Assembly (NCBI GenBank): GCA_021797635.1
Contig: JAJZZI010000110.1
Coordinates: 1-33,763 of the forward strand
Direction: 5' to 3'
Length of the DNA stretch: 33,763 nucleotides
DNA from: Bacillota bacterium
Lineage (GTDB): Bacteria; Bacillota; Sulfobacillia; Sulfobacillales; Sulfobacillaceae
Position numbers and translations under genes: made by a program. This document shows positions 2,388 through 9,414 of this stretch, one piece after another (position 1 is the first letter of the stretch; each line of letters starts with the position of its first letter). The notes below the pieces were generated by a model. That model saw only the letters and a program-made list of their open reading frames with translations, did no database searches and was not told the DNA's origin.

Positions 2388-3293
2388 TTATTTGCCCAGC
2401 ACGTAAACGGTCACTTGCTGAACACCAAAATCTGAGATCACGGTAGGATTGGCATTGATAAACAGGTCCACGCGGTCTCCCTTGATGGCTCCTCCGGTGT
2501 CCATAGCCTGTCCCAAAAATCCTCCCTGAGGCAGATAGTTATCGTGATATCCTTTGACGTAGACCACCGAATGGAGTGGAATCACACTAGGATCGACTGC
2601 CACCATTCCGTTCTGCAGGGGTTGACCGAAAGCGTCGGTGGGACCATAGGGGTAGTTGTCTTGCAAGCTTGGGCCGTACGAGGTCGCAACCATGTGGTAC
2701 GCCTTCAGAACCGGTCGACCATCGATAGTCTTTACCGATGGCGTGAACGGTCCCATGATCCCTGAAGCGGCACTGCGCAGCCCCGGTTCAGCCACGGGGG
2801 TGCCCCCTTTAGGAAACGTGGCGGGCAAGACCGGGGTATTCGGGAAAGACGAACCTGTACCCTTGGACGTCGAGGTTCCTTGCGCAGCACTTACAGAACT
2901 CTGGGTTGGATTAGGAGTGGTGGTAGTCGTTCCGGCGTACGGTGGAGTAATGCCCAATCCAGCTAGGATGTCTTGCCATACGGCCGCCGACGTGACTCCC
3001 GTCGGCGAAAACCCGTGGCGGGTTTGGAACGCCTCTAATGCGGCTTGGGTCTTTGGCCCAAATATTCCGTCCACCGGGCCGACTTGGGTATAGCCCAAAA
3101 GGCCAAGGTCGGCCTGCAAAGTCATGACCCAATGGTTTCGGGATCCGCGTTGTAGGACCTGCTGCATGGCCGGGTGGATAGCTGTCAACTGAGCCGTGCT
3201 AGGTGGACTGGCAGCAAAACTAGACGCGCCTAGCAAAACGGCGGCGATGCTTAGGCCCCCCCCGAATATGGCGCCTAGACTCAAACGATGCAT
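2388..3293 (-). CDS. Secreted peptidoglycan-binding and 3D-domain cell-wall protein
   Basis: A 301-residue exported protein, ATG start at 3293 with GGGGAG about 9 bases upstream. Residues about 5-28 are a signal peptide ending near FAAS. Residues about 45-110 match a PG_binding_1 domain (WVMTLQADLGLLGY, then VDGIFGPKTQAALEAFQ). A Thr/Ser/Pro-rich linker covers about 120-180. The last 100 residues form a 3D domain, the double-psi beta barrel shared with MltA and YocH-type proteins. It is recognised by MVATSYGPS, GMVAVDPSVIPLHS and the conserved MDTGGAIKGDRVDLF with its Asp residues. The protein probably binds and cleaves peptidoglycan or acts as a resuscitation/remodelling factor. A c-di-AMP riboswitch lies directly upstream, as is known for cell-wall hydrolase genes in other Firmicutes and Actinobacteria. 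Confidence 0.88.
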   Translation of the reverse strand: MHRLSLGAIFGGGLSIAAVLLGASSFAASPPSTAQLTAIHPAMQQVLQRGSRNHWVMTLQADLGLLGYTQVGPVDGIFGPKTQAALEAFQTRHGFSPTGVTSAAVWQDILAGLGITPPYAGTTTTTPNPTQSSVSAAQGTSTSKGTGSSFPNTPVLPATFPKGGTPVAEPGLRSAASGIMGPFTPSVKTIDGRPVLKAYHMVATSYGPSLQDNYPYGPTDAFGQPLQNGMVAVDPSVIPLHSVVYVKGYHDNYLPQGGFLGQAMDTGGAIKGDRVDLFINANPTVISDFGVQQVTVYVLGK

Positions 3294-3315
3294 TCAACAA
3301 TCTCTCCCCTCAAGT

Positions 3316-3432
3316 CATAGTGCCTCCGAGGTTAGCTGACGGGTTCGGGCGACGAGAGGTAGGCCCTACGATCTAGTGATCGATTCACCCCGTAGTTGGG
3401 TTCCCCAGTTGTCAAGTAGCGACAATTTGGCC
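3316..3432 (-). promoter_or_regulatory. ydaO/yuaA-type c-di-AMP riboswitch
   Basis: Read on the minus strand, this leader contains the hallmark blocks of the ydaO motif in the right order. First is GGGGAACCCAA, next GGGGTGAATCG, next an AGGGCC/ACCTCTC arm. Last is the near-invariant CGAACCCGTCAGCTAACCTCG, ending in GAGGCAC. It starts just after the promoter at 3438-3466 and ends about 25 bases before the ATG at 3293, so it can act on translation or early transcription. In known examples c-di-AMP binding switches expression off. The 3' expression platform was not resolved. Confidence 0.9.
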
Positions 3433-3437
3433 TGGCC

Positions 3438-3466
3438 ATCATAGGAAACTGTATACTTATTGTCAG
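3438..3466 (-). promoter_or_regulatory. Sigma-A-like promoter for the riboswitch and 3D-domain gene
   Basis: On the minus strand, CTGACA (3461-3466) and TATGAT (3438-3443) are separated by exactly 17 bases. Transcription would begin about 3431, precisely where the riboswitch aptamer begins. Nothing else was recognised between here and the glycosidase stop at 3677. Confidence 0.75.
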
Positions 3467-3676
3467 TCCCCGGATTTCCCATTCAGGCTTCCTTAAGTCA
3501 AAGCATCTAAGCCAGCCTGCCCCGCTGCTTGGTCCCTCGCAAGATTTCAGCTTAATTCCAGGCTTGGCCAAAAATCCTGCGTTTGCCCCTTGTCGGCCTG
3601 GTGGGCGATCAGCCGTAGATTCGCTGGCATCTTGGGTCCTGACCGAGAAATGTTGACGAGTTGTCTAGCTGCCTCT

Positions 3677-5893
3677 TTAGAGATGCCGAGCCTCCGTCAT
3701 ATCCCACCGGACGCACACTCGTCCTCGCGCTGGCAAGAAAATGGTCGCTTCCCCATCAAATAGAACTCCCTCAGAGGATTCGCATATGCCTACGGCGTGG
3801 TCGAATATGACCGTCCAGCTCTCATCTGTGACAATGGTAAGCTGATTTTCCGTTGCCTCTCGAGCGAAATGGAAATCCAAATAATTCTCTGCCATTTTGA
3901 CACGCGTTAACTCCGCCCACGGCCAAGCCCTAGGCATCCGGCAGCGAATGTTCACACGGCGCTGATCGGCCCTCGGGTCAAGCCCAAAGAAGAATTCGGT
4001 CACGGGCACCGCTAATCCATAGAGCGTCCACGCTTGAACAAAGCAACCACCGTCCGGCGACATCTCACTCATCGATCCTGGCATACGCCAATCCATGGTC
4101 GATGCCATGCGTCTCATCCAGTCCAGTGCATCATCGGCGTAGCCGTATCTCGCATCAGCTACTGCCTGCACTCCGGTCGAAATCGTCATCATCTGCTCTT
4201 TCCATCGTCCGGACAAGTAAAGGCCATAGGGTCCGCGAAAGTCCGGCTCGCGCATTCTGGCCAACGCCGCGTTGGCCAGAACAGCCCCAGCAAGTCCTGC
4301 CTCCATCGGGGTATTGATCACCCAGTTGCGCAAGGCGTATGCGCGCTCCTCGGTATTGCCTGCAGCCATGCCGGCGAAAACCTCTACCAAATCCGATCGA
4401 CCAGCCTCTCGCGCCTTTTCGGCCCACCGGGCCAAGCGCTCGGCCATGGCGTCCGGCGATCCGATGATATCACCAAAGGTCTGCTCCTCGGCCATCCAAA
4501 AGCGCTGGTCAATAGTCTCTCGCAACCTTATCGCCCGTTGTTCGTACTCCTCGGCCGCGTCTTCCATCTTTAACACGCGGCTTAGTTCGGCAAGCGATCC
4601 CAAAGCCGTCCATGTATACACGGCGGTGTCGATGAGTTTTAGATTGAGATCTTCGACTTCAATGATGCCGTAGCCGTAGGCTAGATCGTCGCCGTCTGGT
4701 GCCTGCTGCAACACCCAATCCAGGGCCTTCTGAGCATACGGCATCATTTCACGTACGAAGGCGACATCACCGCTCCAGCGGAATATCTCCCAGATAAGCT
4801 GGCAAAACTGTGCCGATTCTTGAGTGTTTCCAGGGTTATAGATCTTGCCGGTGGTCGACATTTCATGGATAATGCGGCCGTTGCCATTTGTTCTGTCCGA
4901 GGCGTGAGCTAAGAGTCGCACGGTCTCTTTAGCTATGTCGAACCGGCCCGTATCCAAAGCCCCCCTGAGCGCATAGCCACTGTCGCAACCAAACCACCAC
5001 GGGTACTCAGGCACACCTGCGCCGAGGCCTCGGCCCAGTCCCGGCACCTCGCGCACCAACCAATCCAGTTGACACTTGGCCCACTGAAAAGCGTGTTGGA
5101 TATCGGCATCGGGGACGTTTAAGGTGCTTAGTCTTTGGATCTGAGCCAGGCGCTTCTCCTTCGCGGTCAACAACTCATCTCGGTAGGCGCTCATGCGCTC
5201 CTGAATCTCAGCGAGCGTCCAATCCTGCGTGGACGCCGCAATCCAAAATGTGAAGCGCATGGCCTGGTCCGGCTGGATTATCCGACTGACCTCGATACTC
5301 CCAATCGCCCATGCCCCGTCGCCGCGGCGCGGTCTGGGCTCGTTCCCGTCCACAGCCCATTTGGCATCCGCCTCGGTTGCGGCTACCAGGACCTGCCAGG
5401 GATGGTTCTGGTTATAAAACAACAGGCCGGAGCCACTGTCCTCAAAAGTCACGCGGTCCCGACCCCGCTCCTCTTCGGCAAGCCATCCCGGACGTAGGTT
5501 GCTGCGAAACCATAGCGTTAACACCGCAGACTTCGGCAGCTTCTGTCGGTTACGAAGGGAAATATCCACAACCAAAACGGGCATTCCATCGGGAATCCAT
5601 TGCTTACGAGTCATCTTCCAGTCGCTTGACGATTCATAGATATGTTCCGTATGCGAGGGGGCAACTCGAAAACTCGTTGCTTGAGCAACCACGGTCTCCT
5701 CTTCTCCCCAGGCTATGCCCAGCCAAAAGCCGTCCATCACCTTCTGAGGGTGAACCCAAAGTCCTCCCATCTCTCCGGGAATATGACCACCCAACGCGGG
5801 AAAGTCTCCATCCTGGCTGCCAATTGCATAGAGGCGATCCCCGGCCGTGATATACAAGTCGTTAAGGCGCGCGCCCTTGACGAGTGATTCCAT
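3677..5893 (-). CDS. Six-hairpin glycosidase, glycogen-debranching-like
   Basis: A 738-residue cytoplasmic protein with no signal peptide. ATG at 5893 is preferred because a GGAGAGGA site lies 9 bases upstream; an ATG eleven codons earlier has none. The N-terminal 250 residues are beta-rich. The middle and C-terminal parts (about 265-620) have the repeated helical hairpins of an (alpha/alpha)6 barrel: WWFGCDSGYALRGALDTG, NTQESAQFCQLIWEIFRWSGD, DTAVYTWTALGSLAEL and MEAGLAGAVLANAALARM. A small beta domain closes the chain. Proteins like this are annotated amylo-alpha-1,6-glucosidase or glycogen debranching protein. The true substrate cannot be read from sequence. It is the last gene of the sugar-transport operon, 407 bases after the permease stop, so it may also have its own promoter. 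It appears only distantly related to the glycosidase half of the repressor fusion. Confidence 0.75.
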   Translation of the reverse strand: MESLVKGARLNDLYITAGDRLYAIGSQDGDFPALGGHIPGEMGGLWVHPQKVMDGFWLGIAWGEEETVVAQATSFRVAPSHTEHIYESSSDWKMTRKQWIPDGMPVLVVDISLRNRQKLPKSAVLTLWFRSNLRPGWLAEEERGRDRVTFEDSGSGLLFYNQNHPWQVLVAATEADAKWAVDGNEPRPRRGDGAWAIGSIEVSRIIQPDQAMRFTFWIAASTQDWTLAEIQERMSAYRDELLTAKEKRLAQIQRLSTLNVPDADIQHAFQWAKCQLDWLVREVPGLGRGLGAGVPEYPWWFGCDSGYALRGALDTGRFDIAKETVRLLAHASDRTNGNGRIIHEMSTTGKIYNPGNTQESAQFCQLIWEIFRWSGDVAFVREMMPYAQKALDWVLQQAPDGDDLAYGYGIIEVEDLNLKLIDTAVYTWTALGSLAELSRVLKMEDAAEEYEQRAIRLRETIDQRFWMAEEQTFGDIIGSPDAMAERLARWAEKAREAGRSDLVEVFAGMAAGNTEERAYALRNWVINTPMEAGLAGAVLANAALARMREPDFRGPYGLYLSGRWKEQMMTISTGVQAVADARYGYADDALDWMRRMASTMDWRMPGSMSEMSPDGGCFVQAWTLYGLAVPVTEFFFGLDPRADQRRVNIRCRMPRAWPWAELTRVKMAENYLDFHFAREATENQLTIVTDESWTVIFDHAVGICESSEGVLFDGEATIFLPARGRVCVRWDMTEARHL

Positions 5894-6300
5894 ATAATCT
5901 AATCCTCTCCCTCTATACTGCTTCATGGCACGTCGGCTTACCGACCTACCGCCTGCTCAATCACATCCGATCCATAACCGCCCGTGAAAGGCACAGCCCC
6001 CCTTCCTCCCGACAGCCTCCAACAAAATGGCGGCCAACACCGTGTATGAGGGCGACATGACGCGGTACGAAAGACGCAAGTCCATGTTAAGCCCCCAAAG
6101 AAAGGCCCGCCGTCCCCAACCAAGACCTAGCAGCGCCCGACCACGGCCTATCCGTTTATCGTGGGCATGGGGCACGTCTGAAGACGCGCCCCTGTTTCGA
6201 AGGTGTTCTCTAAGGAGAGCCCATGGGCCTTCACCATGACCTAACACGACCGGTGCCGTGCCCATGACTGACACCACACCGACGCTTGGACCCCCTTACG
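5894..6300. other. Intergenic region inside the sugar operon
   Basis: Between the permease stop and the glycosidase start I see no credible gene. The overlapping short frames on both strands lack ribosome sites. The clearest structure is a hairpin at 6169-6192: GGGGCACGTC against GACGCGCCCC, loop TGAA, one mismatch. It has no T tract and may attenuate or protect the transcript rather than end it. Confidence 0.4.
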
Positions 6301-7140
6301 CTATTTAATTCCACTCATCACGATTCCGCGTACAAACCATCGCTGGAAGATAAGAAAGAGCACGGCCACAGGGATCGTGATCAGCACACTACAAGCCATC
6401 AAAAGCGGCCATTGCGTAGCGTATTGCGATTGAAACTCCACGATCCCCAACTGCAGTGTCCAAAGATGTGGCAAGTTCGCCACCAACAAAGGCAATAGAA
6501 AATTATTCCACGAACCCACAAAGGTTATTAGAGCCAGGGTAAGCATCGTCGGTGTTACTTGAGGAAGGGAAATTTGCCAGAACATGCGTAGGCGTCCGCA
6601 TCCATCCATCGTCGCAGCGTCATCCAACTCCTGCGGCAAATTCAAAAATGCTTGACGCATGAGAAAGATCCCCATGGATGACACTAAGGTTGGTAAGATC
6701 ATGCCCCAGTAGGTGTTTAACAGCCCCAATTGCCGGAGTAACAAGTAAACGGGAAGCATCACCGCCTGAAACGGCACCATCATCATCGCCAAGGTTCCAA
6801 TATACAAGAAAGTTCTGCCCTTAAAATCAATGCGAGCTAGAGCATACCCGGCCAGCGAGTCCAATATCAGGTTGCCGACCGTAACCGCTCCAGCCACAAT
6901 CGTGCTGTTAAGAAACCAATGAGCCAGCGGGACCTCCTGAAACACGGCCGAAAAGTTGCCCCATTCAAACGGATGCGGCCACCACACGGGTGGAAAGGCC
7001 AACGATAAACTTAACGGCTTAAGCGACGTAGAAACCGTCCACACAAACGGGATCAACATGACTACCGCTCCACCCACGAGAATCACGAAATAAAGCCCTC
7101 GAGACAAGACGTGGAAGAACCCACGATGTTGTCCTGCCAT
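6301..7140 (-). CDS. ABC sugar transporter permease, MalG/UgpE type
   Basis: A carbohydrate ABC importer inner-membrane subunit of the CUT1 family, about 279 residues. ATG at 7140 has AAGGGG 8 bases upstream. A GTG three codons earlier sits against the same site and is less likely. Six hydrophobic segments are visible; the first is VILVGGAVVMLIPFVW at about residues 15-35. The cytoplasmic EAA loop, which contacts the ATPase, is present as ELDDAATMDGCGR with FWQISLPQ downstream. It is paired with the permease at 7180, 39 bases upstream. No ATP-binding subunit is encoded nearby, so a shared ATPase of the MsmK/MalK type from elsewhere is expected. Confidence 0.92.
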   Translation of the reverse strand: MAGQHRGFFHVLSRGLYFVILVGGAVVMLIPFVWTVSTSLKPLSLSLAFPPVWWPHPFEWGNFSAVFQEVPLAHWFLNSTIVAGAVTVGNLILDSLAGYALARIDFKGRTFLYIGTLAMMMVPFQAVMLPVYLLLRQLGLLNTYWGMILPTLVSSMGIFLMRQAFLNLPQELDDAATMDGCGRLRMFWQISLPQVTPTMLTLALITFVGSWNNFLLPLLVANLPHLWTLQLGIVEFQSQYATQWPLLMACSVLITIPVAVLFLIFQRWFVRGIVMSGIK

Positions 7141-7179
7141 CTTGTTCACCCCTTTTTGTCACTCATCAGTTCGTGGCGG

Positions 7180-8130
7180 TCAATATTCGACCGACTGACC
7201 GAGCCATTTGTTGGTGGCCAGTGTCGCCCCCATGATAAAGATGAACCACAGCACGGTAGCCGCAGCACCGTAGCCCACATTGCCGTAGTTGAAGATAAAA
7301 TTATAAATTAGCAACACCACCGTTGTTGTCGAGTGCAGAGGTCCCCCGGTACCGCCGGACATAATGAAGGACTGGTCAAACATTTGCAAGGTGCCAATTA
7401 CTCCCATGACCACGACAAAAAACATGGTTGTACGCAAAAGGGGTAGCGTGACGTTGCGAAATGTTTTCCACGATGTAGCTCCATCTACGGCCGCCGCCTC
7501 AATCAAATTCATCGGGATACCTTGCAGACCCGCCAGAAAGATGATCATAAAGGCGCCTGAGGTGGTCCAGATGTTCATGATCATGATGGTCGGCAGGGCA
7601 AAATGGGGCGATCCCAACCAGTCCGGTTGAGGCAAACCCAACCAGCTTAAGAAACTATTGAACAAGCCCAATTGGTTAAACATCCACATAAAAATCAGGG
7701 TAATAACGGCCGACGAACTAATTGAAGGGAAATAAAAGGCCAGCCGGAAGAATCCCCGTGCCGGAAGGTTCTGATTCAGCATTACCGCCAACGCCAACGC
7801 AATGGCGGTCTGAACGGGAACCACGACACAAGCAAAAATTACGGAGTTTCTGACGGCAATCCAAAACACCGAGTAGTGCAATAGGCCCCAGAAATTTGAC
7901 AAGCCAACGAAATGCATATGGTTCAGCAGTGACCAAGAGAAGAAGCTGAGGTAAAACGCTGCCAACGCGGGTCCCAGAGTAAAGACGAATAGCACAATGA
8001 CCGAGGGAAGACTAAAGGCGTATCCCGCAAAGAGGTCGTTTAGTCGCATGCGCGACATTTTCTGGCGTAAAGGGCGGGGGCCAAGGCCCCGCCCTTTATC
8101 GGCAGAAGCGAAATCCGCTTCCATTTTCAT
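7180..8130 (-). CDS. ABC sugar transporter permease, MalF/UgpA type
   Basis: The second CUT1 permease, up to 316 residues, with six hydrophobic segments beginning with LPSVIVLFVFTLGPALAAF. The EAA loop is present as NLIEAAAVDGATSWKTF with VTLPLLR. The start is uncertain. ATG at 8130 lies 6 bases after the binding-protein stop and is probably translationally coupled to it. However, the first 25 codons contain a very stable hairpin and look unlike permease N-termini. An ATG near 8058 (MSRMRLNDLF) would leave the hairpin in a spacer but has no clear ribosome site. The permease forms a heterodimer with the product of 6301-7140. Confidence 0.9.
   Translation of the reverse strand: MKMEADFASADKGRGLGPRPLRQKMSRMRLNDLFAGYAFSLPSVIVLFVFTLGPALAAFYLSFFSWSLLNHMHFVGLSNFWGLLHYSVFWIAVRNSVIFACVVVPVQTAIALALAVMLNQNLPARGFFRLAFYFPSISSSAVITLIFMWMFNQLGLFNSFLSWLGLPQPDWLGSPHFALPTIMIMNIWTTSGAFMIIFLAGLQGIPMNLIEAAAVDGATSWKTFRNVTLPLLRTTMFFVVVMGVIGTLQMFDQSFIMSGGTGGPLHSTTTVVLLIYNFIFNYGNVGYGAAATVLWFIFIMGATLATNKWLGQSVEY
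8068..8098 (-). promoter_or_regulatory. Stable hairpin at the binding-protein/permease junction
   Basis: TAAAGGGCGG at 8068-8077 pairs perfectly with CCGCCCTTTA at 8089-8098. A further GGCC/GGCC stem closes inside it, leaving one bulged base and a minimal loop. It lies 40-70 bases after the binding-protein stop. Hairpins in this position are known in mal-type operons to stabilise the upstream message and lower permease expression. There is no T tract, so full termination is unlikely. Confidence 0.6.
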
Positions 8131-8136
8131 CGTCGA

Positions 8137-9414
8137 TCACTGCCCCTGCGACCGAAAGACCTGCTGGCCTGCCTGCTGCAAATGCTTTAATGCTGCCGCC
8201 GGCGACTCCTGTCCTTCAACCGCCAGCAAGGTCTGGTTATTTAAGGTAGTGCTGGCATACTGGTCGAATCCGTTCGGAAAGGTCCACGCCCGGGCTACGG
8301 GCAGTGAAGCCAAGAAGGGCTTCCAGATCGGATGCTGCTTAAAGTAGTTGATGCTGGTTACGCTCGGCCGCGTCGGCAGCGCTTGGGTTCCAGCTACCCA
8401 CGCGGGTTGCCCCTGATTGGTCATATAGTTGACCAAGTCCCACGCAGCTTGCTTGTTTGGCGCTGTCTTGCTAATGGCCCAACCAACGGGGAAGCTTAAC
8501 GTCGCGCGATTCACCGGGCCTTTGGGCAACGGAGCTACGCCGTATTTAATTGACGGCCAATCTTGCTTCAGACTGCCGTTGAGCCATCCTCCCTCAATGG
8601 TCATAGCCACGCGCCCAATTCCGAACGATTGGCCGCTCCAAGTTGCTCCTACCTGGCTTGGCTGAGCCGCAATCCCCCTGCGATATAGGCTCACGTAATA
8701 GCTAAAGCCTCGTAGGGCCGCCTTAGTGTTTAGAGTCATCTGATGTTTGCCGGCGTTGAAAATTGTTCCTCCCGCTTGGATCACGAACTCGCCCCAATAG
8801 GCTTCTGACGGGTCAATGCCCAGCCCATATACATGGGCCTTAGCATCGGTCAAAATTTTGGCATCCGTCGCTAGCTGAGCCCAGGTCTTTGGTGGACTTT
8901 TAATGCCCGCCTTGGCGAACATCGTTTTGTTGTAAAAAAGCGCCAGTACGTCTTGGTCCCTAGGAATAGCATATAGTTGGTTATGATAGGTGAATAGGGA
9001 CGTCGTTCCTTGATAAAAGTTATTCACCCGCTGGTGAGACGCGGCCAGAAAATGGTTCAAGGCCACCACGTCGCCGGCGTCAATAAAGGGGCTGGCTTGG
9101 CCTCCGTTGTTCAAAGCGACGACGTCGGCCGCATCCCCGGCCACATACTCTGTCTTCAGGATGGTCTCATAGTTACCGGCCACGGGAAGATATTTCACAT
9201 GAATCCAGGGAAATTCCCGCTCGAACGGCTTCAGAAAATTGTACATCTGCTGCACGTTGTTTTTGGAGTAGGCTGCCCATCCTCCTAGCGTAACGGTCAC
9301 AGCCTTATGCTTCGCCACGAATTGACGAGGTGCCTTGCCCGCAGCGAGACCGCTGACTCCTCCAATAAGTAGGGCCGCCGTTCCCACCGCCATGATTGCA
9401 TGTTGCTTTGCCAA
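8137..9414 (-). CDS. ABC sugar transporter extracellular solute-binding protein
   Basis: A family-1 solute-binding protein of 425 residues that captures a sugar or oligosaccharide outside the cell. TTG at 9414 is the start because AAAGGAGGAG lies about 6 bases upstream. The N-terminus has a hydrophobic signal (AIMAVGTAALLIGGVSGLAAG). Typical features follow: VTVTLGGWAAYSK, FLKPFEREFPWIHVKYLP, ADVVALNNGG, LYAIPRDQDVLALFYNKTMFAKAGI, PPKTWAQL, and a C-terminal WDLVNYMTNQGQPAW. Unusually for a Gram-positive binding protein there is no lipobox cysteine; the only export signal is the hydrophobic stretch. It lies 28 bases after the repressor-glycosidase gene and 6 bases before the permease start, so it is in the same transcript. 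Confidence 0.93.
   Translation of the reverse strand: MAKQHAIMAVGTAALLIGGVSGLAAGKAPRQFVAKHKAVTVTLGGWAAYSKNNVQQMYNFLKPFEREFPWIHVKYLPVAGNYETILKTEYVAGDAADVVALNNGGQASPFIDAGDVVALNHFLAASHQRVNNFYQGTTSLFTYHNQLYAIPRDQDVLALFYNKTMFAKAGIKSPPKTWAQLATDAKILTDAKAHVYGLGIDPSEAYWGEFVIQAGGTIFNAGKHQMTLNTKAALRGFSYYVSLYRRGIAAQPSQVGATWSGQSFGIGRVAMTIEGGWLNGSLKQDWPSIKYGVAPLPKGPVNRATLSFPVGWAISKTAPNKQAAWDLVNYMTNQGQPAWVAGTQALPTRPSVTSINYFKQHPIWKPFLASLPVARAWTFPNGFDQYASTTLNNQTLLAVEGQESPAAALKHLQQAGQQVFRSQGQ

Follow-up and report, generated by a model that had tools for sequence, protein, structure and literature searches.

A c-di-AMP riboswitch ahead of a 3D-domain cell-wall protein gene in a Sulfobacillaceae genome, with a pseudoknot that probably masks the Shine–Dalgarno sequence

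The 3D-domain protein gene and the aptamer in its leader

The window, by which we mean the whole stretch of 33,763 nt that was analysed, carries at 2388..3293 on the minus strand a gene for a 301-aa protein with a PG_binding_1 domain (residues 56–107) and a 3D domain (residues 231–299; PF06725, 55.5 bits against a cut-off of 23.8). By sequence, the protein was matched to solved YuiC (PDB chains; E = 5.5e-6) as well as to PG-binding domains. Its N-terminus looks like a signal peptide, and the 3D protein would presumably act as an enzyme. Its closest relatives are found in Sulfobacillus and in Bacillota MAGs (35 loci), which makes a Sulfobacillus-like source of the window most likely. Three genes with a 3D domain are present in the genome itself, and only the one at 2388..3293 shares a contig with a match to the riboswitch family RF00379.

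RF00379 (c-di-AMP, ydaO/yuaA) was the one Rfam family that exceeded its gathering threshold in the whole window (cmscan). The match lies on the minus strand at 3442..3306, scores 75.1 bits against a cut-off of 38 (E = 6.8e-16) and covers model positions 1–134, that is, the full length; the whole-genome search returned the same score of 75.1 bits. Thus, the Rfam search that had been proposed as a check in the preliminary description of this DNA, with a score below the threshold as the outcome that would speak against a riboswitch at 3316–3466, put the element well above that threshold. The conserved blocks, which had also been pointed out there, are all intact on the minus strand: GGGGA, TGAAT, GTAGGG, CCCGA and CCCGTCAGCTAACCTCG. 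The crystallised aptamer of T. tengcongensis shares them except for TGAAT, which reads CGAAT in its sequence as given in PMC5393176. The first paired base of the window aptamer is 3432. A hairpin, GGGC-CUACCUCUCGUC-GCCC, occupies 3347..3366 on the same strand according to the covariance match and the analysis of its loop, which holds the anti-Shine–Dalgarno strand described below. As indicated by the covariance match and the family comparison, P1 and the other core helices take their 3′ strand from the conserved CUAACCUCGGAGGC at 3322..3335 (minus strand). By its covariance score, the element is a member of the c-di-AMP riboswitch class, and it presumably binds c-di-AMP.

The aptamer (3442–3306, minus strand) is located in the 5′ UTR of the 3D-domain protein gene (3293–2388, minus strand), and only 12 nt separate the end of the match (3306) from the ATG (3293). 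The control of a PG-binding/3D protein by the riboswitch, as put forward in the preliminary description, was supported. The span 3316–3466 itself was right for the promoter and for most of the aptamer, but it leaves out the tail, which includes the Shine–Dalgarno (SD) sequence and extends to 3306 and further, and it was given without the minus strand.

The adjoining gene on the other side, at 515–2059 on the plus strand, encodes a lytic transglycosylase with an SLT domain, and a link between it and the riboswitch had been proposed as well. This link was rejected. As the gene is convergent to the 3D-domain protein gene (515–2059, plus, versus 3293–2388, minus), the riboswitch cannot drive it; moreover, it is not conserved next to the relatives of the 301-aa protein, since a tblastn comparison (E ≤ 1e-6) with the loci of all 35 relatives, taken with up to 5 kb of flank per side, gave no match to it. 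Upstream of the aptamer, at 3677–9414 and on the same strand, lie genes for a glycosidase and for a sugar ABC transporter, the latter comprising two permeases and one binding protein; as far as can be seen, they are outside the riboswitch unit.

Aptamer copies in the family and a shared promoter pattern

All 34 genomes of the family carry RF00379, with 1–10 matches each. The comparison comprised 151 extracted copies out of 177 (the sum of the match column), that is, 150 listed ones and an additional one, L003. Wall proteins that form one similarity cluster are encoded downstream of 84 aptamers, and the cluster is present in all 34 genomes; the domains among these proteins are PG_binding_1 (57), 3D (52), NlpC/P60 (26), LysM (22) and GH18 (8). 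The other 67 copies precede genes for glycosyltransferases (29), ABC permeases (17), amidohydrolases (5), ComA-like proteins (5) and ABC-CBS proteins (2), together with single cases such as KdpA and a GT20, and unassigned genes. These non-wall target domains were read from one representative per cluster, and the 67 include three copies with a wall-type look (L055, L066 and L127) whose reading frames did not cluster. The distance from P1 to the start codon is 17–33 nt in 73 of the 84 wall copies, some start codons picked by the script being surely wrong (10/84 at 5–10 nt and one at 227 nt).

Outside the wall group, the gene most often controlled in the family encodes a glycosyltransferase of the GT4 type (29 similar loci, among them L080). 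At L134 the gene downstream of the aptamer encodes a GT20, which we take to be of the trehalose-phosphate synthase type; this is consistent with osmolyte control.

In the genome under study there are three RF00379 matches: L001 (83.2 bits), which precedes a gene clustering with the glycosyltransferases, the copy in the window, and L003 (36.5 bits). The last one, at 1501–1655 of its locus on contig C121, scores below the cut-off of 38 and lies upstream of a PG_binding/NlpC-P60 gene. It shows an insertion of 15 nt as well as a deletion of one base in the conserved CAGCUAAC block, and it is possibly a divergent aptamer.

The promoter named in the preliminary description, CTGACA-17-TATGAT, is present at its claimed place, with the −35 element at 3461..3466 and the −10 element at 3438..3443 of the minus strand. 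It agrees with the consensus at 10 of 12 positions, and 5 nt separate the last base of the −10 element from the first base of P1. Taken alone, it is weak, because a simple promoter scan found 3 such sites in 2.8 kb and 1.2 would be expected from shuffles. What makes it credible is its conservation in the family: the pattern NTGACA-17-TANNNT occurs just upstream of 55 of the 84 wall-gene aptamers and of 2 of the 67 others, with 69 occurrences in total over the 328,762 bases that the 151 loci comprise. The distance from the −10 element to P1 is 5 or 6 nt in 33 occurrences of the pattern and 15–16 nt in 14. The promoter is therefore well founded. Judging from its spacing, the first transcribed base would be at or near the beginning of P1 (3432), and the riboswitch probably forms the start of the mRNA. 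The pattern is absent upstream of 29/84 wall-gene aptamers (e.g., L071, L119, L137, L146 and L153), for which a different sigma factor might be used, or transcription might start elsewhere.

A pseudoknot between the aptamer loop and the Shine–Dalgarno sequence

At its apex, the GGGC/GCCC hairpin has a loop with the strand CCUCUCG (3359–3353, minus strand), which can form an uninterrupted helix of seven base pairs, including two G-U pairs, with UGAGGGG in the tail (3312–3306, minus strand). The tail strand overlaps the SD stretch UGAGGGGAGAG (3312–3302). No terminator-like site was found on the minus strand from 3306 to 2800, in a scan of the region 2800–5600. Both this absence and the pseudoknot with the SD sequence were missed in the preliminary description. 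The scanned part thus does not show the intrinsic terminator of terminator-type ydaO platforms such as those of kimA and kdp. As would be expected of a translational type like that of C. glutamicum nlpC, the aptamer and the gene are not separated by an intrinsic terminator, and an aptamer strand is complementary to the SD sequence with covariation, to which the caveats on composition and register given below apply.

Transcription attenuation could still operate if c-di-AMP stopped RNA polymerase early, either without a canonical terminator or through Rho-dependent termination coupled to the loss of translation. Premature termination is reported in PMC10117811 for S. coelicolor rpfA, which is described in PMC9960051 and PMC10117811 as having no canonical terminator. 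Terminator platforms also exist in the related genomes, as a T-run lies within 110 nt past P1 in 52 of the 67 non-wall copies. However, the corresponding count for the wall copies is just 13/84, and the scanned part downstream of the window aptamer, where only 12 nt separate the match from the ATG, holds no terminator-like site. We regard attenuation as unlikely here.

To score the helix across the family, a fixed 16-nt loop window was compared with a 26-nt tail window at a threshold score of 13; this version is parse-free except for L003, L096 and L185, whose anchors were set by a rule in the script. A score of at least 13 was reached by 79 of the 84 wall-gene aptamers, and an SD-like core lies within the tail strand in 75/84. 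The mean score of 58 non-redundant copies was 16.33, versus 13.88 (sd 0.35) when the tails were permuted among copies, and none of 500 shuffles reached the observed mean, although relatedness among the copies remains in this test. Looser (64 copies) and stricter (37 copies) redundancy cut-offs gave the same outcome (z = 8.1 and 6.0, respectively). In the controls, pairing the loop with a window in the coding region gave 12.18, and pairing another aptamer segment with the tail gave 10.34. Part of the complementarity is compositional, as the tail is purine-rich owing to the SD sequence and the loop is pyrimidine-rich by class; even the permuted pairs average 13.88, and a score of 13 is reached by about 35 of 58 of them. 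A first fixed-window version, with 71 non-redundant copies of the 95 that had a start within 35 nt, gave 16.04 versus 13.65 (sd 0.31; 0/500 shuffles). Weaker numbers came from parsing the hairpin loop automatically (38/59 at a score of at least 13, permuted mean 25); by eye, the hairpin had been placed wrongly in about a quarter of the rows. The later fixed-window version was used because it does not depend on a parse.

Loop and tail strands co-vary, as in CUCUCG/CGAGAG, CUCGCG/CGCGAG, UCCUUCA/UGAAGGA, UUCCUG/CAGGAA and CCUGU/ACAGG. Among the 47 copies with a CUC[U/G]C loop, pair 4 is U-A in 28, U-G in 10 and G-C in 9, with no mismatches, but the tail register was picked for maximal pairing and such mismatch-free counts lean towards the model. 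The replacement of the loop U by G is accompanied by a tail C in 9/9 copies from eight genomes. L076 and L077 contain CGCGAG besides the GGGGAG that was counted.

Five wall copies (L118, L147, L167, L173 and L177) have no strong helix. Their loop is GCCUCCA or ACCUCCA and their tail GGAAGGAAGG, and the helix found in them is either limited to the four pairs of CUCC/GGAG or off target; they may use a different register.

We consider it likely that the window element is a c-di-AMP riboswitch that acts on translation and whose ligand-bound fold hides the SD sequence. With transcription starting at about the first P1 base, the aptamer would constitute the 5′ end of the mRNA. Upon binding of c-di-AMP the aptamer would fold, and the loop CCUCUCG would pair with the tail strand UGAGGGG just past P1, which in the window, as in most wall-gene members of the family, coincides with the SD sequence. 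The ribosome site would then be hidden and less of the secreted 3D/PG-binding wall protein would be made, while at low c-di-AMP the site would be released. The OFF direction is suggested by the known behaviour of the class and by the solved construct being a ligand complex.

The opposite direction would require that, in the ligand-free RNA, CCUC of the 3′ core strand pairs with GAGG of the SD sequence, and that c-di-AMP sequesters CCUC and frees the SD sequence. CCUC is indeed near the SD sequence and complementary to it, and the minimum-energy fold pairs parts of the CCUC-bearing strand with the tail. Plain energy folding of the leader, in which the SD sequence is paired with the start of the coding region, misses the native aptamer (z = +1.05), a point against the SD-masking model; overall, such folding was uninformative. 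The CCUC strand is near invariant, so covariation cannot support this pairing, whereas loop and tail do covary; an ON switch thus appears very improbable. We give slightly less weight still to an aptamer that has decayed or does not switch and persists as a structure of the 5′ UTR. In favour of this, the core helices contain a few pairs marked as non-standard, and the score of 75.1 bits, 24 bits below the best, ranks near the middle of the family copies listed. Against it, the conserved blocks are intact, and across the family both the promoter and the pseudoknot have been retained.

For the family as a whole, we lean slightly towards a sorting of outputs. Genes for wall remodelling (3D, NlpC/P60, LysM, GH18) would almost all have their SD sequence masked by the pseudoknot of the class, without a separate expression platform and often with one shared promoter layout, so that the translational switch would be nothing other than the aptamer's structural pseudoknot; for glycosyltransferase, transporter and osmolyte genes of the same genomes, terminators would prevail. 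This suggests that, in one genome family, the same sensor has two outputs for two groups of genes.

The pseudoknot outside the family and the source of c-di-AMP

Of 30 copies that belong to other families of the phylum, 27 also showed the loop–tail helix, with a T-run downstream in most of them. Since it is likewise found in the T. tengcongensis construct, the pseudoknot is class-wide, and wall genes differ in that the tail strand is the SD sequence. Among eight genes scanned outside the family, the one wall hydrolase (L204, NlpC/P60 and LysM) starts 21 nt past P1 and has no T-run. A short gap without a T-run is likewise seen at a non-wall radical SAM gene (L193), and the sorting of outputs by gene function is therefore not strict outside the family. 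The aptamer of L193, like those of L192 and L213, lies 17–28 nt ahead of radical SAM genes of the lysine-2,3-aminomutase type, which we assume might belong to a beta-lysine osmolyte route.

The ydaO aptamer of T. tengcongensis (PDB 4QLM) was solved with its ligand, in a construct that contains the loop CUCCUUCG and the tail CGAAGGAG (PMC5393176). It resembles the window aptamer in the consensus blocks, the core helices and the pseudoknot strands (CUCCUUCG/CGAAGGAG there, CCUCUCG/UGAGGGG here); in the window, the tail strand lies on the gene's own SD sequence and no terminator follows.

Control of wall hydrolases by c-di-AMP through ydaO RNAs, which the preliminary description had taken as established in other bacteria, is indeed documented for Streptomyces and Corynebacterium (PMC10117811, PMC9960051). 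Streptomyces has c-di-AMP RNAs ahead of several wall hydrolases in one genome, which is similar to the situation described here, but the control reported for rpfA is premature transcription termination (PMC10117811). With the nlpC leader of C. glutamicum, raised c-di-AMP lowers the reporter protein and not the transcript, and a pseudoknot in which CUCC pairs with GGAG of the RBS was proposed by the authors (PMC9960051). This leader and that in the window share a wall-protein gene, the lack of a canonical terminator and translational control, which for the window is our proposal; they differ in phylum and in the protein, NlpC/P60 there and 3D in the window copy. The idea that the pseudoknot of an aptamer also serves as an anti-SD element, so far put forward for a single RNA of Corynebacterium, now has comparative support from 84 RNAs in many genomes, at the level of sequence. 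Masking of the SD sequence is proposed only in PMC9960051 among the consulted parts of PMC9960051, PMC5393176, PMC7266159, PMC6488665 and PMC10117811, and other literature may already state the overlap of pseudoknot and SD sequence. The element is thus of an ordinary kind, and its output mechanism is somewhat more interesting than had been noticed, with a novelty limited by PMC9960051.

Finally, the preliminary description had connected the riboswitch with osmotic or DNA-integrity signalling. The latter was not supported: the only gene with a DAC domain found in the genome encodes CdaA according to NCBIfam (241.1 bits against a cut-off of 188.8), and the DisA model gave 49 bits on it against a cut-off of 201. 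DisA input was thus rejected, with a missed DisA being possible in a genome that is 95.85% complete. The CdaA gene is followed by a gene with a YbbR domain (CdaR-like), and its identity and neighbourhood together point to wall or osmotic input rather than DNA damage.
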